64,000 bases of DNA from Salidesulfovibrio onnuriiensis (lineage in GTDB: Bacteria; Desulfobacterota; Desulfovibrionia; Desulfovibrionales; Desulfovibrionaceae). The stretch is from positions 2,277,001 through 2,341,000 of the forward strand of contig NZ_CP040751.1 of the NCBI RefSeq assembly GCF_008001235.1. The letters are read 5' to 3'. Under the pieces are notes generated by a model. That model was given only the letters and a program-made list of their open reading frames with translations, ran no database searches and was not told the DNA's origin. Position 1 is the stretch's first letter; every line of letters begins with the position of its first letter. Below are positions 16,640 through 46,302 of this stretch, piece by piece. A program made the translations under genes and the position numbers.

Positions 16640-17346
16640 ATAACAACGGCGATATCAGCCGGAAAGGTTTCAAGTCCGTTTTCAAGGGATTGCTCATGCT
16701 GGCCGTGCTCGGTGCGGCCGTTTACGCTGCGCGCCACTTCGGGCTCGACGACATGCTCAGGAACACCAAGTGGTTCGATGAACATGTCCTGGGGTCCGGC
16801 CCCATGTCCATCCTTATCTATGTCGGGGTGGTTGCGCTTCTCTCCGCCCTTGGGCTTCCCCGTCAGCTTCTGGCCTTTCTGGGCGGATATGCCTTCGGTG
16901 TGGTGAACGGTTCCATCCTGTCCTCGGTGGGATGTGGGCTGGGGTGCTGGCTGGCGGCCGGATACGCGCGCCTGTTCGGTCGTGAAATGATTTCCCGCCG
17001 TTTTGGCAAGCGAGCCGAGAAGATAGATGCATTCCTGCGCAGCCAGCCGTTCAACATGGCGCTGGCCATCCGGCTTTTTCCCCTGGGAAGCAATCTTATT
17101 ACCAATCTGGCCGCTGGCATGAGCAGCATTTCGCTGCTTCCCTTCGTGCTCGGATCGACCATCGGGTATATCCCCCAGAATGTCGTCTTCGCCCTGTTCG
17201 GCGGCGGCCTCAATGCGGAATCCGGGACAGGGGTTGTCCTGTCCGTGGGCGGCAGCGTCGTGTTGTTCGTGGCTGCGGGCTGGCTGGGGATGTTGACCTA
17301 CCGCCGTTACCGCAAGGAAGCTTCCGGCGTGGTCGAGGGCGATTAA
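16636..17346 (+). CDS. DedA/TVP38-TMEM64 family membrane protein
   Basis: 236 residues with about five or six membrane helices. The VTT (SNARE-associated) core is visible as GLPRQLLAFLGGYAFGVVNG, RLFPLGSNLITNLAAGMSSISLLPFVLGSTIGYIPQNVVFALFGGG. Members of the superfamily flip polyprenyl phosphates or move phospholipids, which fits the preceding lipid-carrier transferase. The frame is open from 16405; I chose the ATG at 16636 because it overlaps the previous stop as ATGA and begins a normal N-terminus. Its stop codon overlaps the convergent PAP2 gene. Confidence 0.85.
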   Translation: MNNNGDISRKGFKSVFKGLLMLAVLGAAVYAARHFGLDDMLRNTKWFDEHVLGSGPMSILIYVGVVALLSALGLPRQLLAFLGGYAFGVVNGSILSSVGCGLGCWLAAGYARLFGREMISRRFGKRAEKIDAFLRSQPFNMALAIRLFPLGSNLITNLAAGMSSISLLPFVLGSTIGYIPQNVVFALFGGGLNAESGTGVVLSVGGSVVLFVAAGWLGMLTYRRYRKEASGVVEGD

Positions 17347-22893: not shown

Positions 22894-23919
22894 TTAGAAT
22901 GCGTCGTAGAGAATGTGCAGTCCGGCGGAGGCGATATCCTTGCAGCCGGTGAGCACCATGGACTGTTTGAGCTGGGCCATGATGGTTCCCAGGTACTTGA
23001 CCACGCCGTCGCGGCCGCCTCCTATGGCTGCGTAGCAGAAGGGGCGGCCGATAAGCACACAGTCCGCCCCCAGGGCGACCATCTTGAGCACGTCAAAACC
23101 GTCGCGCACTCCGCCGTCCACCATGATGATGGCGCTGCCCTTGACCTCCTCGGCTACGTCGGTGAGCACTTCTGCCGTGCCCGGGGTGTGGTCCAGGACT
23201 CGTCCTCCGTGGTTGGAGATGACAATGGCGTCCGCTCCGGCCTCAGCGGCCCTGACAGCCTCTCTGGGATCCATGATGCCCTTGAGAATGAACTTGAGGC
23301 CCCGGTCATGAACCATGTCCGCCACTTCCTTGAGCTGCGCCGGGCTTTTGGGGGAGACCGGGCGGCCCATGAGGCGCAGGGTGATGAGTCCCGCCGCGTC
23401 GATGTCCATGCCTAGCACGGAGCATCCGGTCTTGGCGGCCATGTCGAGTTTCTCCTCGAATTCTCCGCCTTCCCAGGGCTTGATGAACGGAATGCCGTGG
23501 CCTTCGAATTTGGTAATGCCGTCAAAGGCGCTCTTGTAAATGAATTCGGGTACTCCGTCGCCCGTACAGCCGATGACGCCCGCGTCCTTGCAGCCGCCCA
23601 GGATCGCATCCACGTAATCCTGTTCCTCCATGCCGCCGCCCATGTTGAAGGAGACGCCGCCGATGGGGGCTGCCATGACGGGCATGGCCAGGTCCAACCC
23701 CAGCACATTAGAGGACGGATCGGGGTCGGTCACGTCGTGCAGGAGCCGCATGTTCAGAGTGACTTCCCGAAGGGCCGAGACGTTTCTCTTGAAGGCGTTG
23801 CCGGTGTTGATGCCGCCCATGCCGGGCACCTCGCCCGCGCAGGCCTTGCCGTCACAGACCGGACAGACCCGACAGAATCCCTTCATCAGTTTTCGTGCGT
23901 TGTCGCGAATTTCCTTCAT
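22894..23919 (-). CDS. FMN-dependent alpha-hydroxy-acid dehydrogenase with N-terminal Cys cluster
   Basis: 341 residues. The FMN-binding TIM barrel of the lactate/glycolate oxidase family is clear: VMAAPIGGVSFN, KFILKGIMDPREAV, IVISNHGGRVLDHTPGTAEVL carrying the catalytic His (SNHGGR), and IIMVDGGVRDGFDVLKMVALGADCVLIGRPF. Four cysteines near the N-terminus (16, 19, 22, 27: CRVCPVCDGKAC) suggest a metal or Fe-S site through which electrons could leave, rather than oxygen as acceptor. Substrate is not certain; lactate is the obvious candidate in this type of organism. Last gene of the regulator-TauE-dehydrogenase operon. Confidence 0.88.
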   Translation of the reverse strand: MKEIRDNARKLMKGFCRVCPVCDGKACAGEVPGMGGINTGNAFKRNVSALREVTLNMRLLHDVTDPDPSSNVLGLDLAMPVMAAPIGGVSFNMGGGMEEQDYVDAILGGCKDAGVIGCTGDGVPEFIYKSAFDGITKFEGHGIPFIKPWEGGEFEEKLDMAAKTGCSVLGMDIDAAGLITLRLMGRPVSPKSPAQLKEVADMVHDRGLKFILKGIMDPREAVRAAEAGADAIVISNHGGRVLDHTPGTAEVLTDVAEEVKGSAIIMVDGGVRDGFDVLKMVALGADCVLIGRPFCYAAIGGGRDGVVKYLGTIMAQLKQSMVLTGCKDIASAGLHILYDAF

Positions 23920-23937
23920 GATTCTTTCCTCCGATGG

Positions 23938-24735
23938 TTAGAACAGGCTCCAGAGCATTTTGGAACCGACAATGAGCAAGAGAATGGCGAATATCCTTTT
24001 CAGCCGGTGTACGGGCAGGCTGTGAGCCAGCCGGACTCCCAGGGGGGCGGTCAGCATGCTCATGGAAACGATGCCCAGCAGGGCGGGCAGGTACACGTAT
24101 CCCAGTGACCAGTCCGGCAGGTTGGCGGCGCTCCAGCCCGTGGTGATGAATCCCGCGGTGCCGGACAAGGCGATGGGCAGCCCTATGGCGGCCGCCGTCC
24201 CGATGGCCGTATGGATGGGGATGTTGCACCAGGCCATGAACGGCACGGAAAGCGTGCCGCCGCCGATGCCCACCAGGGCCGAGAACACGCCGATGCCGTT
24301 GCCCACGCCGAACATGGGCAGGGGGCCGGGGACGGTGCGGTTCGGCTTGGGCTTTTTGCCGGTGATCATCTGGTAGGCCACGAAGTAGAGGAAGACGCCG
24401 AAGAAGCCCTTGAGAAAGTTGGTGGGCAGGGCCGAGGCAATGCAGCTTCCCAGGAAGGTGCCGGTGAGGATGCCCAGGAATATCTTGCGGAAGATGTCCC
24501 AGCGCACGGCGCCTCTCTTGTTGTGGGCCAGGCAGCTGGAGATGGAGGTGAAGATGATGCTGGCCAGGGACGTGCCCAGTGCCAGGTGCATCATGACTTC
24601 GTGGGGAATCCCCTGGGCCGTGAAGCAGAAATAGAGGATGGGCACGATGACCAGTCCGCCGCCTATGCCGAGCAGGCCCGCCAGTATGCCCGCCAGTATG
24701 CCCATGAGCATGTAGGTCAGGAAAATCGTCAGCAT
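23938..24735 (-). CDS. TauE/SafE-family membrane exporter
   Basis: 265 residues with about eight membrane helices. Two repeated halves carry the family pattern (GILAGLLGIGGGLVIVPILYFCF and GVFSALVGIGGGTLSVPFMAW). Members export sulfite, sulfoacetate or similar anions, or import organic acids. It starts seven bases inside the end of the upstream regulator gene and ends 18 bases before the dehydrogenase start, so the transported compound is probably the substrate or product of that enzyme. The actual substrate is not visible. Confidence 0.88.
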   Translation of the reverse strand: MLTIFLTYMLMGILAGILAGLLGIGGGLVIVPILYFCFTAQGIPHEVMMHLALGTSLASIIFTSISSCLAHNKRGAVRWDIFRKIFLGILTGTFLGSCIASALPTNFLKGFFGVFLYFVAYQMITGKKPKPNRTVPGPLPMFGVGNGIGVFSALVGIGGGTLSVPFMAWCNIPIHTAIGTAAAIGLPIALSGTAGFITTGWSAANLPDWSLGYVYLPALLGIVSMSMLTAPLGVRLAHSLPVHRLKRIFAILLLIVGSKMLWSLF

Positions 24736-25421
24736 GGTTCTTGTTCTCCTTCTGGGTGGAGGGCAATGCTCTCCATGTTTTTGATGTGGTTGGTCATGGT
24801 GAAGTAGGCCCCCAGCGGATTGCGGTTTTCCAGGGCTTCGATGATCTGCAGATGCCCCTCCACGGACGCTCCCTTGCGGCGGCCGGGGCGCATGAATTCG
24901 GACCGGGTGTCTTCGAGCAGGGTCTTGATAGTGTCCATGACCTTGAGCACTACCCCGTTTCCTGCCGCCTCGGCCAGCGTTTGATGAAAGAGTGCGTCGA
25001 GTTGTGCATCTGTTTCGCCAGCCGCTGCGGCGCGCCCCTGGTCCAAAACAATGGCTTTGAGTCGGTTCAGGGCGTCCGGGCTAATGCGTTCCGCTGCCAG
25101 GGACGCGATCTGCGGTTCCAGCAGCATGCGCAGTTCGAATATTTCGCGGATGCGTTGCTTCTGGGTCTGGATGGCCTCGGCCAGGTGGTCGCTCAGTTCG
25201 GTCTGGTCCGTGCTGCGGACATAGGTGCCGTCGCCCAGCCTGCTTTCCAGGATTCCTTTTTCCGCCAGGGCGCGGATGGCTTCCCGTACGCAGTTTCGAG
25301 AAACCGAGAACGTTTGCGCAAGACTCCTTTCCGGGGGGATTCGGTCCCCGGTGGAGAATTCGCCGTTTTCGATCATGCTTTTGATCCGGTCCACGATGAC
25401 CTGATATTGATGTCGGGGCAT
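24729..25421 (-). CDS. GntR-family (FadR/LldR subgroup) transcriptional regulator
   Basis: 230 residues. N-terminal winged helix (PRHQYQVIVDRIKSMIENGEFSTGDRIPPERSLAQTFSVSRNCVREAIRALAEKGILESRLGDGTYV), then an all-helical FCD ligand domain (EIFELRMLLEPQIASLAAERI...DAQLDALFHQTLAEAAGNGVV...GHLQIIEALENRNP) whose His and Asp positions bind a metal and small carboxylates in FadR-type regulators. Start at 25421 is the usual MPRHQ N-terminus; the frame is open to 25487. Leads the operon with the TauE and dehydrogenase genes and has a palindromic operator 27 bases upstream, so autoregulation is likely. Confidence 0.9.
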   Translation of the reverse strand: MPRHQYQVIVDRIKSMIENGEFSTGDRIPPERSLAQTFSVSRNCVREAIRALAEKGILESRLGDGTYVRSTDQTELSDHLAEAIQTQKQRIREIFELRMLLEPQIASLAAERISPDALNRLKAIVLDQGRAAAAGETDAQLDALFHQTLAEAAGNGVVLKVMDTIKTLLEDTRSEFMRPGRRKGASVEGHLQIIEALENRNPLGAYFTMTNHIKNMESIALHPEGEQEPC

Positions 25422-25447
25422 TGGTACTACCTTTGTCGTTTTGCTTG

Positions 25448-25463
25448 AATTGGTCTGACCAAT
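25448..25463. promoter_or_regulatory. GntR-type operator palindrome
   Basis: AATTGGTCTGACCAAT, a perfect inverted repeat about a three-base centre. It matches the AATTGGTnnnACCAATT pattern known for PdhR/LldR-class GntR repressors and the TGGTCnGACCA core of FadR sites. It lies directly upstream of the regulator gene, on the promoter side. Confidence 0.8.
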
Positions 25464-25619
25464 ATTCCGTCTCAGCAGTAAATGCAAGGGGAAAACTGGT
25501 CAGCAGGCTGGGAATGGTTACATGATTAAGAACGGAAGGCGTGCTTCCGATCTTGGCGAGCAGTTGCAAAAGTATTGGGACTCGGTGTAGAAAATACCGA
25601 TTTCAAGAGAGGTTATATC

Positions 25620-26455: not shown

Positions 26456-27436
26456 TTGGGAACAGGCGAGGATATTTTTGATTTCTTGAATCGATCCAAA
26501 TGGTTGTCTGTAGCTGGGCCAGCGGCGATCTCCTTTCTTGCCGCCGGGGAATACAATGAAAACTACCTGGTTCATTCAAGCCAGGGGCAGTTTGTTTTTC
26601 GTATCAATCATGGCAGCCAGCTCGGACTGGACAACCAGATCCAATATGAATTTCAGGTTCTCGAGGCGGTCTACGGTTCGGGCGTGACCCCCCGGCCCCT
26701 GTACTGGTTGCTGGATCCGGAACAGGAAAGTCTCGGCGACGGCGTCATGCTCATGGAGTTCCTACCGGGCCGTCCGCTGGACTATGATCGGGATGCCGAC
26801 GAGGCGGCCCGCATATTCGCCCGAGTCCATTCCCAGCCCGAGGATGCCCGGTTGCTGGTGCAGCGAAATCCGGTCCTGGACATCGCCCGGGAGAGCCGCG
26901 TGCTGATTGATCGTTATGCCTTGGACCATCCCCTGGAGAATCGGCGTTCCCTGTTGCTGGAATATCATGATCGTGTTCTGGGCTGGGGAGAGGAGGCCGA
27001 ACGACTTTTTGCCGGGGAGCCTCTGGTGATCGTCAATACCGAGGTCAATTCCCACAATTTTCTTATAGATGACTCGGGGCCAGACAAGCGGGGGTATCTT
27101 GTCGATTGGGAAAAAGCCGTGGTTTCCTGCCGGTATCAGGATCTCGGTCATTTTCTGGTGCCCACCACGACACTCTGGAAGAGCGACAGACGATACTCCC
27201 AGCAGGAGAAAAAGGCCTTTCTCGAACAGTATCTGAGCGAGACTGGACTGGAATGTTGCATTGAGGAAATGGCTTATAAAACCGATATATTGGAGAATAC
27301 AATACTCTTGCGGGCAATGGCCTGGTGCTTTATGGCTTTTTACGAGTACACTCGGGAAGACCGCGTTTTGAAGAACGAGTATACTTTCAAGAAAATAACG
27401 CAATACCTCAACGAGATGGAATGTTTTTTCGCGTAG
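26456..27436 (+). CDS. choline/aminoglycoside-kinase-like protein with altered catalytic loop
   Basis: 326 residues, APH/ChoK fold. Nucleotide-loop region FLAAGEYNENYLVHSSQGQFVFRINHG, linker hinge LMEFLPGRPLDYD, catalytic loop and metal Asp217 (GYLVDWEKAV) are recognisable. The normal Brenner motif HxDxxxxN reads N194-T-E196-V-N-S-H-N201: the His is Asn and the catalytic Asp is Glu, while the Asn is kept at the right spacing. Start is a TTG at 26456 with GGGAG six bases upstream. The gene overlaps the ABC ATPase gene by 16 bases, so a small-molecule (choline-, ethanolamine- or thiamine-like) phosphotransferase coupled to import is the simplest idea; loss of activity is also possible. Confidence 0.8.
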   Translation: MGTGEDIFDFLNRSKWLSVAGPAAISFLAAGEYNENYLVHSSQGQFVFRINHGSQLGLDNQIQYEFQVLEAVYGSGVTPRPLYWLLDPEQESLGDGVMLMEFLPGRPLDYDRDADEAARIFARVHSQPEDARLLVQRNPVLDIARESRVLIDRYALDHPLENRRSLLLEYHDRVLGWGEEAERLFAGEPLVIVNTEVNSHNFLIDDSGPDKRGYLVDWEKAVVSCRYQDLGHFLVPTTTLWKSDRRYSQQEKKAFLEQYLSETGLECCIEEMAYKTDILENTILLRAMAWCFMAFYEYTREDRVLKNEYTFKKITQYLNEMECFFA

Positions 27437-28383
27437 ACGGCCTGGTGAAATCCTTTGGGAGAGAAACGATTCTGGACCACATCGGTTTCGAGGTGGACCG
27501 TGGCGAGATCGTCTCCCTCATCGGGCCAAGCGGTGTGGGCAAGACCACCCTCCTGAACATCATCGCCGGACTGGAGAAGCCTGACTCCGGCTCCCTGCAT
27601 TTCAGCGTGCCGCCCAGCAGGGAACATCCCGTGATCATGGTCTTTCAGGATTATGTCCTATTTCCCAACCTGACCGTTTTCGAGAATGTGGCCTTCGGCC
27701 TCCGGGTCCGCAAGATTTCGGGGAGTGATGTCCGAAAGCGGGTCATGGAGATTCTGTCCTATTTCCAATTGGCCGAAAAACAGGGCCTGTATCCCAACCA
27801 GCTTTCCGCCGGGCAGCGCCAGCGGGTGGCCATTGCCAGGGCCATGGTGGTCAATCCCGCCATGCTGCTTCTGGACGAGCCTTTTGCCAACCTGGACCGC
27901 AACCTCAAGATGCAGACGGCCGAATTCATCCGCGACACGCAAAAGGAATTCGGGGTGACCACCATCAGCGTGACGCATGACCTGGAAGAGGCCTTTGTCA
28001 TGTCCGACCGTATCGGGCTGATCCTGGAAGGCCGACTGGTGCAGTACGACACGGCCGCAGAGGTCTATGGCAATCCCGCCACCATGGAGGCCGCCCGGTT
28101 CATGGGGCCCATGAATGTGGTTCGGTCCCGCCTGGTTGATCCCTCGCGGGCGGAATGTTTGCCAGACGAAGAGTTGTACCTCCGGCCCGAGGCCATGACT
28201 ATGGTCAAGGAAGAGGGCGCTCCCGGTGTGGTGGTGGAGTCCTCGTTTGCCGGGCATTACACCAAATACCGGGTCCGGCTGGGAGAGGACGAGGTGGTGA
28301 TCTTCGACAGGCAGGATGGGATCCGGCCCGGAGACAGGGTCCATGTCCGGCTGGCGGAGAATGCGGAGAACGGAGAGGGCTAG
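27421..28383 (+). CDS. ABC transporter ATP-binding protein, YnjD-like
   Basis: 320 residues. Walker A GPSGVGKTT, Q-loop VFQDYVLFPNLTVFENVAFGLRV, signature LSAGQRQRVAIARA (Ala in place of the second Gly), Walker B MLLLDEPFANLD and switch His (SVTHDLEEAF). A C-terminal extension of about 90 residues looks like a TOBE-type regulatory domain (YLRPEAMTMVKEEGAPGVVVESSFAGHYTKYRVRLGEDEVVIF), as in the spermidine/thiamine/iron importer class. ATG at 27421 lies inside the preceding gene. Energises the two permeases downstream. Confidence 0.9.
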   Translation: MFFRVDGLVKSFGRETILDHIGFEVDRGEIVSLIGPSGVGKTTLLNIIAGLEKPDSGSLHFSVPPSREHPVIMVFQDYVLFPNLTVFENVAFGLRVRKISGSDVRKRVMEILSYFQLAEKQGLYPNQLSAGQRQRVAIARAMVVNPAMLLLDEPFANLDRNLKMQTAEFIRDTQKEFGVTTISVTHDLEEAFVMSDRIGLILEGRLVQYDTAAEVYGNPATMEAARFMGPMNVVRSRLVDPSRAECLPDEELYLRPEAMTMVKEEGAPGVVVESSFAGHYTKYRVRLGEDEVVIFDRQDGIRPGDRVHVRLAENAENGEG

Positions 28384-28384
28384 C

Positions 28385-29596
28385 ATGAAACGGGTTTTGC
28401 CTTTCATCCTTTTGCTTTTGATGGTCGCCTGTTCCGATTCGGGCCCCGCGGAAAGGGACGATTGGCTGGCCAGGACCTATTCCGATATCGAGGACGCCGC
28501 CCGGGGAACCTCGGTCAGATTCGCCATGCCCGGGTCGTTTCCGTATGCCGACGTCTGGGTGGACAACTACGTGATTCCGTCCATGAAGCGTCAGTATGAC
28601 ATCTCGGTCGTTCGCGTGCCCATGCCCCCCGGGGAGTTGTCCCGCAGGCTTATTGATGAACGCAACCTGGGGAGGGAACCCGGAAGCGTGGATCTGGCCT
28701 GGATCAGGGGAGAGGATTTCAAACGGCTTCGGCAGGCAGGGGCTTTTTTCGGACCCATCGCGTCCCGGCTGCCCAATTTTCGAAAATACGTGAACCGGGA
28801 ACTCGCCGCCGTGGACTTCGGGTTTGCCAACGACGGCTATGAAGTGCCGCTGGGCAAGGAACAGTTCGTGTTCGTTTATGACAGCGCACGGCTGGAGGAT
28901 GTCCCCGGAACATTCGCCGAACTTCGCGAGTGGGTCAGGCGGAATCCCGGAAAGTTCACCTATCCGAGGCCACCCGATCCCGTTGGGTCGGCCTTTGTGC
29001 GTCAGCTGTTCAACGCCCTGGGCGGTGAGGGCAATGCGTTCTGCCGAGGATTCGACCGCGAGCAGTTCCTGAAGCATTCACCGGCTGTCTGGGAATATTT
29101 GAACGACATAAAACCGTTTCTCTGGCGGCAGGGCCGTGTCTATCCCGAAGGGGACGACCTAATGGAGCGGCTGTTCGTGGGGGGCGAAGTGTTCCTGAAC
29201 ATGACCTCGCAACCCCTTCGTGTGCGCAGTCGGGTGCTGGACGGTATCTATCCTCACTCGGTCCGTTCCTTTGCCATGCGCGACGGATCGCTGTTCAGCC
29301 TTCATTTCATGGCCGTTCCCTTCAATGCGTCCAACAAACCCGGGGCGCTGGTGCTGGCCAATTTTCTGATGTCGCCAGCGGCGCAGTATTCCAAGTTCGA
29401 TCCCGACAACTGGGGTGATTATCCGGCCATCGACGTTTCCAGGCTGCCCGAAAGCATCCGGGAGAAATTCGCCGCCGTGTACCTGGGAAGATCCGTGGCG
29501 TCCCCGCACGAATTGGCCGTGGCCGCCGTGCCGGAAATTCCGGCCGAATACGGGGTCGCCCTGGACAAAGGATGGAAGGAACATGTCGCCCCTTAG
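28385..29596 (+). CDS. ABC transporter substrate-binding lipoprotein, YnjB-like
   Basis: 403 residues. Signal peptide with lipobox MVAC (Cys16) anchors it to a membrane. The remainder is a type II periplasmic binding protein related to E. coli YnjB and, more loosely, to thiamine and spermidine binding proteins (VRFAMPGSFPYADVWVDNYVIPSMKRQYDISVVRVP; VDLAWIRGEDFKRLRQAGAFFGPI; LMSPAAQYSKFDPDNWGDYPAIDVSRLPE). Ligand residues cannot be assigned by eye. Starts one base after the ATPase stop and overlaps the permease by 14 bases. Confidence 0.87.
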   Translation: MKRVLPFILLLLMVACSDSGPAERDDWLARTYSDIEDAARGTSVRFAMPGSFPYADVWVDNYVIPSMKRQYDISVVRVPMPPGELSRRLIDERNLGREPGSVDLAWIRGEDFKRLRQAGAFFGPIASRLPNFRKYVNRELAAVDFGFANDGYEVPLGKEQFVFVYDSARLEDVPGTFAELREWVRRNPGKFTYPRPPDPVGSAFVRQLFNALGGEGNAFCRGFDREQFLKHSPAVWEYLNDIKPFLWRQGRVYPEGDDLMERLFVGGEVFLNMTSQPLRVRSRVLDGIYPHSVRSFAMRDGSLFSLHFMAVPFNASNKPGALVLANFLMSPAAQYSKFDPDNWGDYPAIDVSRLPESIREKFAAVYLGRSVASPHELAVAAVPEIPAEYGVALDKGWKEHVAP

Positions 29597-30461
29597 GCAG
29601 CCGTCCTTGCCTACGCTGGTGAAGCTCTCGCCGTTATTGGCTCCCTTTGTGGCGCTTTTTCTGGGCGGTCTGGCCCTGGCCGTGGCCCAGTCCCTGGGGT
29701 TTTGGTTGCCTCTTCCCTACGAAGGCGGGCCTTTTGACGCCTATGCCCGGCTGCTCGATCCGTATCTGTTGCGTTCCGCCGGCCTGTCCCTGTATGTTGC
29801 CCTGGTCTCGGCCCTGTTTTCCGTGGCCGTCGGTTCGGTGCTGGCCTATGCAATATGGCGTTTGCCCCGGGCCCTGGAGCGCGCGGCAGTGGTCTACAAG
29901 GTCCCGCTCATTCTGCCGCCCATTGCCGTGGGATTCATCGTGCTCGTCTTCTGGAGCAACTCGGGTGTCATCAGCTCCGTGGGGTTCCATCTCGGACTGG
30001 TGGAACGTCCGGCCGATTTTCCGTCGGTGCTTTACGGGGGCTGCGGACTGGGCATGATTCTGGCCTATGTCTACAAGCAGGTGCCGTTCATGGTCATCCT
30101 GGGATACGCCGTGCTCAAGCGGGTCAGCCCGCAGCTGGTGGTCACGGCCAGGATGCTCGGGGCAGGGGAGGCATACACTTTTTTCCGCGTGGTGCTGCCG
30201 CATCTCGCCAAGGTCATGCACGTGGCCTTTATTATCCTGTTTTTATATGATTTCGGTGCATTCGACATACCTTTCCTGCTCGGAGAGAGCTCGCCCGGCA
30301 TGCTCAGTGTGGAGGTCTTCAACCTCTACTTTCGGAGAGATCTTTCCAACCGGCCCACGGCAATGGCCATGCTGGTGTGCATGTTTCTGTTTTCGCTTCT
30401 TTTTATCGTGCTGTATACCAAGCTGGCCTCGCGCCTGGAAAACAGGGAGCGCAAGCTGTGA
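29583..30461 (+). CDS. ABC transporter permease 1, YnjC-like
   Basis: 292 residues, about six membrane helices. The binding-protein-dependent transport signature with the EAA-type loop reads MLGAGEAYTFFRVVLPHLAKVM. ATG at 29583 lies within the end of the binding-protein gene; the frame is open from 29415. E. coli YnjC is one fused protein of two permease halves, whereas here the halves are separate genes. Confidence 0.87.
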   Translation: MSPLRQPSLPTLVKLSPLLAPFVALFLGGLALAVAQSLGFWLPLPYEGGPFDAYARLLDPYLLRSAGLSLYVALVSALFSVAVGSVLAYAIWRLPRALERAAVVYKVPLILPPIAVGFIVLVFWSNSGVISSVGFHLGLVERPADFPSVLYGGCGLGMILAYVYKQVPFMVILGYAVLKRVSPQLVVTARMLGAGEAYTFFRVVLPHLAKVMHVAFIILFLYDFGAFDIPFLLGESSPGMLSVEVFNLYFRRDLSNRPTAMAMLVCMFLFSLLFIVLYTKLASRLENRERKL

Positions 30462-31243
30462 TACCCCGCCTGTTTTACGCGTTCATTGCATTTGTGTCCC
30501 TGTTCCCGCTGGTGGTGATGGTGGGGTATGCGCTGGCTCCTGGGTGGACCTTCCCGGACCTGATTCCACAGCCCGTGGATGGCCGAGCCCTGGAGTATCT
30601 TCTGTCCCAGGCCGGTCCCGTGGCTCGGCACATGGGGGCTTCCGTGCTGTATTCTTTGCTCACCGTGTTGCTGACGCTGCTGTTTTGCCTTTCCCCGGCG
30701 CATCATTTCGCCCGCTGCGAATTTCGCGGCAAGGTGCTGCTGGAAGGGCTGCTGCTGGCTCCGGCCCTGGTGCCTGCCATGACCTTTTCCATGGGCGTGC
30801 ATACCATGTTCATCCATCTGGGACTGGCCGACTCCTTTGTCGGGGTGGTGCTGGTGCTCTCCACATTCAGTTATCCCTACATGCTGCGGGCGCTCATTGC
30901 CGGGTTTCAGGCCGTGGGGCCGGAATACGAGCAGTGCGCCCGGAATCTCGGGGCCGGTTTCATGACCCGGCTGGTGCGCATTGAACTGCCGCTGTTGGTT
31001 CCCTCCATGGTGGCCGGCGGCTCCGTTGTCTTCCTGGTGGCCTTTTCCGAATATTTTTTGGTTTTCCTTATCGGCGGCGGCGCCGTGGATTCCTTTACCG
31101 GCTACCTGTTTCCGTACCTGGCCTCGTCGGACAGGAGCATGGGGGCCTTGCTCACGCTTCTGTTTCTGATCGTGCCCGTCGGGCTGTTCGTATTCATCGA
31201 ACTGGCCGTATCCCGGGTCTACCGCAGGCGAGGTCTGTATTAG
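30458..31243 (+). CDS. ABC transporter permease 2, YnjC-like
   Basis: 261 residues, about six membrane helices. EAA-type loop: CARNLGAGFMTRLVRIELPLLVPSMVAGG. GTG start at 30458 with GGGAG eight bases upstream, overlapping the previous gene by four bases. The five genes from 26456 to here show spacings of -16, +1, -14 and -4 bases, i.e. one translationally coupled unit. A terminator-like hairpin follows at once. Confidence 0.87.
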   Translation: MIPRLFYAFIAFVSLFPLVVMVGYALAPGWTFPDLIPQPVDGRALEYLLSQAGPVARHMGASVLYSLLTVLLTLLFCLSPAHHFARCEFRGKVLLEGLLLAPALVPAMTFSMGVHTMFIHLGLADSFVGVVLVLSTFSYPYMLRALIAGFQAVGPEYEQCARNLGAGFMTRLVRIELPLLVPSMVAGGSVVFLVAFSEYFLVFLIGGGAVDSFTGYLFPYLASSDRSMGALLTLLFLIVPVGLFVFIELAVSRVYRRRGLY

Positions 31244-44595: not shown

Positions 44596-46302
44596 ATGTC
44601 TCAACATGTTGTCGTCATAGGCGGCGTTGCGCTGGGCCCCAAGGCCGCGTGCCGTTTCAAGAGGATTGAACCCGGGTCAAAGGTGACCATGCTCGACATG
44701 AGCGATCTCATTTCCTACGGTGGATGCGGTATCCCGTATTACGTTTCCGGCGATGTGCCCGACGCCGAAGCCTTGCGCACCACGGCTTTTCACATGGTCC
44801 GCGATGAGAAGTTCTTCGAGGACATCAAGGGCGTGGACGTGATGACCCGCACCAAGGCCACCCAGGTGGACCGGGAAAACAAGCGGGTTCATTACGAGAA
44901 CGTCGCCACCGGTGAAACCGGTGTGCTCGATTACGACAAGCTGGTCATCGCCACCGGGGCCACCCCGCGCAAGCTGAACATGCCCGGGGAAGACCTCAAG
45001 GGCGTGCATTATGTTTCCAACCCGCATGATGCGGAGTGTATCCGTGCCTCCATTTCCCAGGGGCAGGTGGGCAAGGCCGTGATTATCGGGGCCGGGTTCA
45101 TCGGCCTTGAGATGGCCGAGGCCTTTGCCGATATGTGGGGCGTGGAAACCACGGTGGTCGAGATTTTCGACCAGATCATGCCGCGGCTGGTCAGCCCGAC
45201 CCTGGCCCGCATGGGCATGGAGCACATGCAGGAAAAAGGGGTCGAATTCCACCTGGGCGAAACCGTCAAGTCCATAGAGGGCGACGGCAAGGTGCAGCGT
45301 GTGGTCACCGACAAGCGTACCCTGGAAGCCGACTGCGTGATCATTTCCGTGGGCGTGATTCCCAACGATTTCGTGGCCAGGGAGGCCGGCCTGCAGTGCC
45401 ATGAGCGCGGCGGCATCATCGTGGATGAAATGTTGCGTACGTCGGACCCGGACATCTATTCGGGCGGCGACTGCGCCATCATCAAGAACCTGATCACGGG
45501 TCAGCCCCTGTTCCTGCCTTTGGGGTCCATGGCCAACCGGCAGGGCCGTATCATCGGCAACAACCTGGCCGGAGGCGAGTCTTCCTTTGACGGCGCAGTG
45601 GGCTCCTTTGTGGTCAAACTCTTTGAAACCTCCCTGGCTGGCACCGGGCTGAGCCTGGAGGCTGCGGAAGGGGCCGGGTACGATGCTTTCAGCGTCATGC
45701 TTACTCAGCTCGATCGGGCTCATTTCTATCCCACCAAGGAACTCATGACCCTGGAGCTGGTCGTGGAGCGCGGCACCCGCAAGGTGCTGGGCGTTCAGGG
45801 CTTCGGCAGTTCCGGGGACGCCATGGTGGGCCGGATCAACGCCGTGGCTTCGATCCTCAAGTTCAAGCCGACCATCGACGATATCAGCAATCTGGAGCTG
45901 GCCTATGCGCCGCCGTTTGCCGCGGCCATGGACATTTTGAATACCGTGGCCAACATGGCCGATAACGTTCTGCGTGAAATGAACCGGGGCGTGGGGCCCG
46001 CCGAGTTCGAGAAGATGTGGGCCGCCCGCGAATCGGGCGATTTCTGTTTCATCGATTGCCGCGAGCAACCGGATGCGCAGCCCTACATGGAACGCAATCC
46101 CGGGCACTGGCAGAACATTCCCCAGGGCGAGATCTACAAACGTCTGGACGAGGTCCCCGAAAACAAGACCTGCGTGCTGGTCTGCAACACGGGAGCTCGT
46201 TCCTACGAAGCCCAGATCATGCTTACCCACAAGGGACACAAGAACGTGATCAACATTCACGGAGGCATGGCGTCTCTCAAGAAGTATGGCATTGAACTGT
46301 AG
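44596..46302 (+). CDS. CoA-disulfide/persulfide reductase with C-terminal rhodanese domain
   Basis: 568 residues. FAD/NAD(P)-dependent disulfide reductase part (1 to about 450): FAD motif VVVIGGVALGPKAACR, active-site Cys44 in SYGGCGIPYYVSG (the single-cysteine CoADR type), NAD motif AVIIGAGFIGLEMAEAFADM, and FAD motif DIYSGGDCA. The rhodanese-like domain (about 470-568) has Cys530 in VLVCNTGARSYEA. This is the architecture of Npsr, which reduces CoA- or sulfane-persulfides with NADH. Cytoplasmic; links sulfane sulfur to the NADH pool. The second Gly of the usual GGVAxG is kept with Leu at A+1, still plausible. Confidence 0.93.
   Translation: MSQHVVVIGGVALGPKAACRFKRIEPGSKVTMLDMSDLISYGGCGIPYYVSGDVPDAEALRTTAFHMVRDEKFFEDIKGVDVMTRTKATQVDRENKRVHYENVATGETGVLDYDKLVIATGATPRKLNMPGEDLKGVHYVSNPHDAECIRASISQGQVGKAVIIGAGFIGLEMAEAFADMWGVETTVVEIFDQIMPRLVSPTLARMGMEHMQEKGVEFHLGETVKSIEGDGKVQRVVTDKRTLEADCVIISVGVIPNDFVAREAGLQCHERGGIIVDEMLRTSDPDIYSGGDCAIIKNLITGQPLFLPLGSMANRQGRIIGNNLAGGESSFDGAVGSFVVKLFETSLAGTGLSLEAAEGAGYDAFSVMLTQLDRAHFYPTKELMTLELVVERGTRKVLGVQGFGSSGDAMVGRINAVASILKFKPTIDDISNLELAYAPPFAAAMDILNTVANMADNVLREMNRGVGPAEFEKMWAARESGDFCFIDCREQPDAQPYMERNPGHWQNIPQGEIYKRLDEVPENKTCVLVCNTGARSYEAQIMLTHKGHKNVINIHGGMASLKKYGIEL

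Follow-up and report, generated by a model that had tools for sequence, protein, structure and literature searches.

An operon in Salidesulfovibrio onnuriiensis that joins a YnjB-type importer to an APH-fold kinase with an NxE loop

Genes of the operon

The genome of Salidesulfovibrio onnuriiensis, a single contig of 3.89 Mb, carries an operon of five genes encoding a small-molecule kinase of the APH fold and the ATPase, solute-binding protein and two permeases of an ATP-binding cassette (ABC) importer (Table 1). It lies in a 64,000-nucleotide stretch of this contig (NZ_CP040751.1), hereafter the window, to which positions refer unless a locus is named. A first-pass annotation, made from the letters of the window, had described the operon with gene spacings of -16, +1, -14 and -4 bases; the same values were obtained from the coordinates, and the protein families agreed.

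The kinase scored 69.7 bits against the APH model PF01636 (gathering cut-off 23.2), as expected from the fold first proposed, and its TTG start fits the N-terminal alignment with the closest relative. The binding protein falls inside NF008633, the family that holds Escherichia coli YnjB, and so the importer is YnjB-like as annotated; among 14 control genomes this family was matched in E. coli alone. Compared with the E. coli cluster ydjXYZ-ynjABCDE-ynjF, which encodes the YnjBCD importer, the binding protein is 34% identical and the ATPase 33%, over 188 residues of the ynjD stretch; the top NCBIfam models for the ATPase, PhnT2 and PotA, stayed under cut-off. E. coli has a single permease gene, ynjC, and no kinase annotated in the cluster, whereas the window has two permease genes and a longer ATPase with a TOBE domain. 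The permease had been called split on this account: there are two genes, but this is unusual only with respect to YnjC, two being the usual state in relatives. One report (PMC3688515) tabulates ydjXYZ-ynjABCD among the members of the FNR regulon.

A search of solved structures with the kinase and the binding protein returned weak matches only, uninformative on substrate, and a scan of the sequence for promoters and terminators gave a site count no higher than in shuffled sequence.

Table 1. Features of the operon in the window, and sister kinases at related loci (A1 and A2, alignments described in the text).
Feature	Coordinates	Strand	Evidence
APH-fold small-molecule kinase, NTE family, 326 aa, TTG start	26456..27436	+	PF01636 4.2e-19; alignments A1, A2
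Catalytic loop NTEVNSHN (N194 to N201), where HxDxxxxN is expected	27035..27058	+	Translation; N194, T195, E196, N198, N201 invariant in A1 and A2
Metal-binding DxE motif of the kinase (D217-W218-E219)	27104..27112	+	Invariant in A1 and A2
ABC importer ATPase with TOBE_2 domain, ATG start; 16-base overlap with kinase gene	27421..28383	+	ABC_tran 4.5e-33, TOBE_2 1.3e-9
YnjB-type solute-binding protein (SBP_bac_8)	28385..29596	+	NF008633 390.5 bits, cut-off 203
Importer permease 1, 292 aa	29583..30461	+	BPD_transp_1 2.8e-12
Importer permease 2, 261 aa	30458..31243	+	BPD_transp_1 4.8e-7
Sister kinase, HG[S/T]xxx[S/T]D replacing NTEVNSxN	L065:8256-9074
Sister kinase, same replacement	L066:8918-9790
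Sister kinase, same replacement	L067:8400-9233
Sister kinase, same replacement	L236:8576-9514

Conservation of the kinase loop

The catalytic loop of the APH superfamily reads HxDxxxxN. At this place the first-pass annotation had read NxExxxxN, with the metal-binding Asp217 retained, and both readings were confirmed: the translation has N194, E196 and N201, and thus departs from the superfamily loop while keeping its Asn and the metal Asp. A phmmer alignment with 7s3l sets NTEVNSHN opposite HCDVNHNN, which supports the position of the loop. The kinase shares its Pfam match with methylthioribose (MTR) kinase, ThiK, CcrZ and choline kinase, and differs from them by NxE in place of HxD.

Two alignments were inspected. 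A1 has 23 rows from the organism's own family; A2 has 56, made up of the window plus 55 loci drawn from the 80 that were kept, out of 146, in a scan whose patterns included NTEVNS[GH]N, with identities down to 35%. Residues R49, E65, N194, T195, E196, V197, N198, S199, N201, D217, W218 and E219 were invariant in A2 and the G-loop nearly so; N194, E196, N201 and D217 were invariant in A1 too. Because the scan patterns contained the motif, we did not treat the scan loci as a fair sample for testing it, yet NTE was also read at L096, L098, L118 and L121, whose variant escapes the pattern NTEVNS[GH]N. In loci outside A2, S199 is changed to A in some and V197 to L in two Clostridia.

Samples collected blind to the motif gave the same picture. 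Among 199 genomes of the family, 34 had a kinase match, of which 32 were of the NTE type and two (G046 and G072) had a sister protein only. When 33 loci from this family were fetched, 30 read NTEVNS, as does the window, and the other three HGSxQx[S/T]D; the kinase of G055 (record L118), outside this comparison, reads NTEVNA. The one clade without NxE is also without the G-loop motif. In Clostridia, NTE[V/L]N was found in all eight kinases, and the three matches from a sample of the phylum, own kinase aside, comprised two NTEVNS and one HTD, the latter from a very distant relative with other gene surroundings (L166). As a control, the Pfam APH model was searched against 25 relatives: the 32 matches read, out of 48, gave 22 [H/Q]GD, seven NTE (window included), two HG[S/T] and one that was unreadable, so that NxE occurred in none of the 22 unrelated APH proteins read.

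By these comparisons the kinase is an altered APH subfamily, related to the others by profile. We take NxE to be fixed in a functional subfamily and to have been lost in one side branch. In homologues of the same context NTE is kept and a standard HxD is not the rule, in line with the first reading. Simple decay of HxD was ruled out, because N194 and E196 are conserved.

Literature on related kinases provides some points of comparison. In the available text of a classification of small-molecule kinases, the catalytic Asp is among the residues common with protein kinases, and a Glu-bearing family was not found in that text (PMC4702295). MTR kinase, as described in PMC2194712, is similar in its G-loop (GxGNxN, close to GxxNxN of the NTE family) and its DxE metal motif; its twin-Arg substrate motif is not matched, R49 and R286 being the sole invariant arginines of A2, with no invariant pair.

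One option raised at the outset was a pseudoenzyme sensor; in that case NxE would abolish phosphotransfer, and the protein might regulate the importer as an ATP-dependent sensor. The loss of HxD, and the absence of NxE from the 22 unrelated APH proteins read, would fit such a sensor. Against it stand the invariance of R49, E65, E196, N201 and D217-W218-E219 and the near invariance of the G-loop across A2. We do not favour this option and consider it improbable, also in view of the partners of the kinase described below.

Partners of the kinase across genomes

Kinase and importer occur together well beyond the window. In the 199 family genomes, the YnjB-type binding protein was found in 30 of the 32 kinase genomes versus 8 of 167 others (Fisher test, p=6e-26), a probability which, like the other Fisher probabilities given here except the genus-level one, treats genomes as independent. 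By genus, it was found in 11 of 12 kinase genera versus 2 of 32 (p=1e-7). Neither of the two kinase genomes without it is completely assembled (67 and 87%), and in one a fragment of the binding protein lies at a contig end. Across 265 genomes of Clostridia, eight had the kinase, nine the binding protein and seven both (p=2e-11, or 4e-10 with the seed genome excluded), which leaves the kinase alone in one and the binding protein alone in two; the latter was near the kinase in three of seven non-seed loci. A sample of 297 genomes of the phylum gave four kinase matches, own kinase and HTD relative included, and two binding proteins, both in kinase genomes.

Gene order was next compared at the loci of the motif-based scan, which were not selected for context. 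It is kinase-ATPase-binding protein-permease-permease in Desulfobacterota and binding protein-permease-permease-ATPase-T2-(T1)-kinase in Bacillota, where T1 is a CofC-like nucleotidyltransferase (TIGR04282) and T2 a GT2-type transferase (TIGR04283). Counts rest on tblastn; picking the longest open reading frame (ORF) gave antisense frames in GC-rich loci. A complete importer was present in 15 of the 22 Desulfobacterota/Spirochaetota-type loci counted (out of 44, those with 4.5 kb or more visible to both sides) and in 19 of the 25 Bacillota-type loci counted (out of 36; L141 is from Pseudomonadota). The expectation that importer and kinase are co-conserved was thus borne out across phyla. The idea of a coupled module stands in that respect, and is weakened by each partner being also found alone.

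Representatives of T1 and T2 exceed the cut-offs of their two families. In the S. onnuriiensis genome both do so (200.7 and 234.2 bits), as an adjacent pair at C1:3.33 Mb (L168), about 1.0 Mb from the operon; their tie to the window operon would rest on comparison, not on local linkage. At E<=1e-25, every one of the 32 family genomes with the kinase had T2, versus 58 of 167 others (p=2e-13); at the curated cut-off the figures are 30 of 32 and 56 of 167, G055 and G085 falling under it. T1 and T2 lay alongside all seven non-seed kinases of Clostridia, and T1 was found in six and T2 in five of the 22 Desulfobacterota/Spirochaetota-type loci. At L232, from a different family of the organism's order, T2, T1, kinase, ATPase, binding protein and two permeases follow in line.

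Among 259 ORFs matched by kinase, T1 or T2 queries, two are fusions of T1 with the kinase. One is from Clostridia (L231, 493 aa); the other, from yet another family of the organism's order (L233, 576 aa), is followed by the ATPase, binding protein and two permeases. Both T1 proteins tested were over the cut-off of the CofC guanylyltransferase model PF01983. That the kinase is paired and fused with a nucleotidyltransferase-like protein suggests a need for a phosphorylated product, and it accompanies T1 and T2 even where the importer is not nearby; both observations speak against a sensor. The annotation had pictured an import-and-trap module. The coupling of kinase to importer remains, but trapping is too narrow an account, and so is coupling to the importer only, given the linkage to T1 and T2 and the two fusions. 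From these links, the phosphate added by the kinase probably primes activation and does more than trap.

Within 8 kb of the kinase in the 25 Bacillota-type loci, from which the reference sequences for these counts were themselves drawn, T1 was found in 24, T2 in 23, a nucleoside hydrolase in 20, a DedA/TVP38 protein in 18 and a rhodanese in 17. The TVP38 reference set had a few longer fused proteins, and a recount with short references still gave 18 of 25. The DedA/TVP38 and rhodanese proteins of the E. coli cluster are 52% and 36% identical to the Bacillota versions, and binding protein and ATPase too are common to E. coli and the Bacillota clusters. The 64-kb window gave no rhodanese match, and weak TVP38-like matches at 16777-17211 (78 bits) and 44938-45477 (58 bits), which lie some 9 kb before and 14 kb after the operon.

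Some other neighbours were recorded. Upstream of the operon (22894-25487) lie an FMN-type dehydrogenase, identified by eye, a TauE/SafE permease and an FCD-type GntR regulator; a GntR-TauE pair, also identified by eye, adjoins a binding protein and a nucleoside hydrolase at L077. The S. onnuriiensis genome has a second YnjB-type binding protein at C1:1.28 Mb (L070:5048-10310). Encoded with it are a membrane-like protein of 211 aa, a nucleoside hydrolase and an 8-oxoguanine deaminase that exceeds the cut-off of NF006055; kinase and ABC genes were not found in this stretch by tblastn. At a Desulfosporosinus kinase locus (L147:11721-13001), one product resembles the radical SAM protein TrsS, scoring 386.7 bits where the cut-off is 490, and another is a PhnP-like MBL protein; the related locus L149 encodes a molybdopterin oxidoreductase.

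The chromosomal slot of the operon could be followed within the genus by its markers, an HSDR_N protein, a ferredoxin, a GTPase, AroK and TrkH, although not every marker was seen at each locus; the window and G198 have YchF as the GTPase, and that of the other loci has another P-loop pattern. The slot holds the full operon in the window. In G198, the closest relative of the window operon (73%), it holds the operon without a binding-protein gene between ATPase and permeases (L035:5737-9453); this genome does carry the second YnjB-type binding protein, of the L070 type. A lone binding protein occupies the slot in G148 (L080), and G004, G046 and G072 (L065-L067) have nothing there but an HG[S] kinase. 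In G513 (L236), with just the first two markers visible, it contains an HG[T] kinase and a binding protein. G004 has a full NTE operon elsewhere in its genome (L041), and G046 and G072 gave no match genome-wide for T2 or for a YnjB-type binding protein.

The origin of these sister kinases was examined by phylogeny. In a tree with far outgroups, the HG[S/T] clade fell outside the NTE kinases, on long branches. Without them, it nested among NTE kinases of the genus, with supports of 93/94 and 99/93 and one weak inner fork. A constraint joining nine of the ten tested own-genus NTE kinases with the clade was rejected (p-AU 0.03), which places other own-genus kinases elsewhere. The nesting is likely, though not proven, and the simplest reading of the slot is that the loop was freed from constraint after reduction of the pathway. 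The sister proteins are possibly pseudokinases; since their frames are still open, a new function is also possible.

A proposed pathway and its alternatives

We consider it probable that the operon provides uptake and the first activation step for a pathway, conserved and uncharacterised, of import, phosphorylation, nucleoside diphosphate (NDP) activation and transfer. As family membership and co-conservation suggest, the YnjB-type importer would take up a small hydroxyl compound X, and the NTE kinase, an active phosphotransferase with Glu196 where relatives have Asp, would convert it to X-phosphate. T1 would then form NDP-X, as its fusions and CofC likeness suggest, and T2, to judge by its family, may transfer X to an acceptor. 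The genes, the constancy of NxE, the co-occurrence and the fusions are observed; catalysis, the order of the steps and the role of Glu as base are what we infer.

In the available text of PMC2194712, the catalytic Asp of MTR kinase, a member of the same superfamily, contacts O1 and O2 of the ribose. Because of this, and of the nucleoside hydrolases near many NTE kinases, we would guess that X is a sugar or a polyol resembling one, perhaps freed from a riboside by the hydrolase. The evidence points specifically to none of choline, ethanolamine and thiamine.

Several observations weigh against this reading. NxE is not universal beside importer parts, as the HG[T] kinase that adjoins a binding protein at L236 illustrates. 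Kinship is ignored in the co-occurrence probabilities, and nine of the 25 Bacillota-type loci are from Enterococcus. The importer occurs without the kinase in 8 of the 38 family genomes that have the binding protein and, in Clostridia, in G567 and G637; E. coli has ynjBCD and no TIGR04283 match. Conversely, the kinase occurs without a nearby importer, for example at L085, L095, L113-L115 and L141, and G791 has the kinase and no binding-protein match. The window contains neither T1 nor T2, T2 is also present in the 58 kinase-less family genomes counted above, and the NCBIfam name for T1 is a glycosyltransferase. Finally, a nucleoside hydrolase was seen in only 2 of the 44 Desulfobacterota/Spirochaetota-type loci.

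The main rival for X is an amino alcohol or polyol head group, which would be imported, phosphorylated, turned into a CDP derivative by T1 and placed on a lipid or glycan by a phosphotransferase, as in LicABC or Kennedy-type scavenging. LicABC choline scavenging and NahK-type sets bring together an importer, an APH-fold kinase and a sugar- or alcohol-phosphate nucleotidyltransferase. The functional parts here are the same as in LicB-LicA-LicC, with another transporter family, a CofC-like nucleotidyltransferase and the NxE loop. The CofC likeness of T1, and the frequent DedA/TVP38 neighbours in Bacillota-type loci seen in full, would suit a head group. At L189 (7245-14441) the binding protein, two permeases, ATPase, kinase, T1 and T2 come before a CDP-alcohol phosphatidyltransferase that scores 29.8 bits against PF01066 (cut-off 22). 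This arrangement favours the rival and recalls E. coli ynjF, annotated likewise beside ynjBCDE. However, this signature was found in L189 alone among the loci scanned, and the CDP-alcohol step was rejected as a general part of the pathway. Moreover, the NCBIfam matches of the kinase (GntI, ThiK and CcrZ) are far under their cut-offs and none is a choline kinase, and T2 is a GT2-type transferase, not LicD. Head-group scavenging thus appears rather unlikely.

The NCBIfam names of T1 and T2 raise a further alternative, since TIGR04282 and TIGR04283, to which both belong by score, are named for arsenosugar biosynthesis. T2 is present in 23 of the 26 ArsS genomes of the family (p=2e-6), and elsewhere the kinase often has a nucleoside hydrolase nearby. 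ArsS itself, a radical SAM protein (TIGR04167), had no match in the S. onnuriiensis genome at E<=1e-25. It is absent from 30 of the 32 kinase genomes of the family (present in 2/32 versus 24/167 others, p=0.27) and from 24 of the 25 kinase genomes chosen elsewhere. As ArsS is unmatched in this genome and unassociated with the kinase, arsenosugar biosynthesis was rejected there, and an arsenosugar-type pathway seems very improbable. At one locus of the family with ArsS and T1 (L181:8850-11871), a pyridine nucleotide-disulphide oxidoreductase resembles a TVP38-containing fusion protein of relatives.

From conservation across genomes, the operon and the NxE family belong to a real, conserved and uncharacterised pathway, with uptake, phosphorylation and nucleotide activation as its probable opening steps. 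More tentatively, the pathway may be widespread, mostly in anaerobes, with YnjB-type uptake of a hydroxyl compound, phosphorylation by a kinase that has permanently taken Glu for Asp and Asn for His, and activation as a nucleotide conjugate for transfer. In the open full-text literature on ynjB/C/D and ydjXYZ/ynjA/ynjE, no title or abstract among the papers listed names the substrate of the importer, which is not proof of absence. The kinase and the nucleotidyltransferase fused to it offer an enzymatic route to the substrate of this orphan importer family, and the T1-kinase fusions could report two successive steps from one polypeptide. The NxE subfamily would test the limits of replacement of the catalytic Asp. 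If the proposed pathway is true, the pathway would provide the first biochemical lead for the orphan importer YnjBCD of E. coli.

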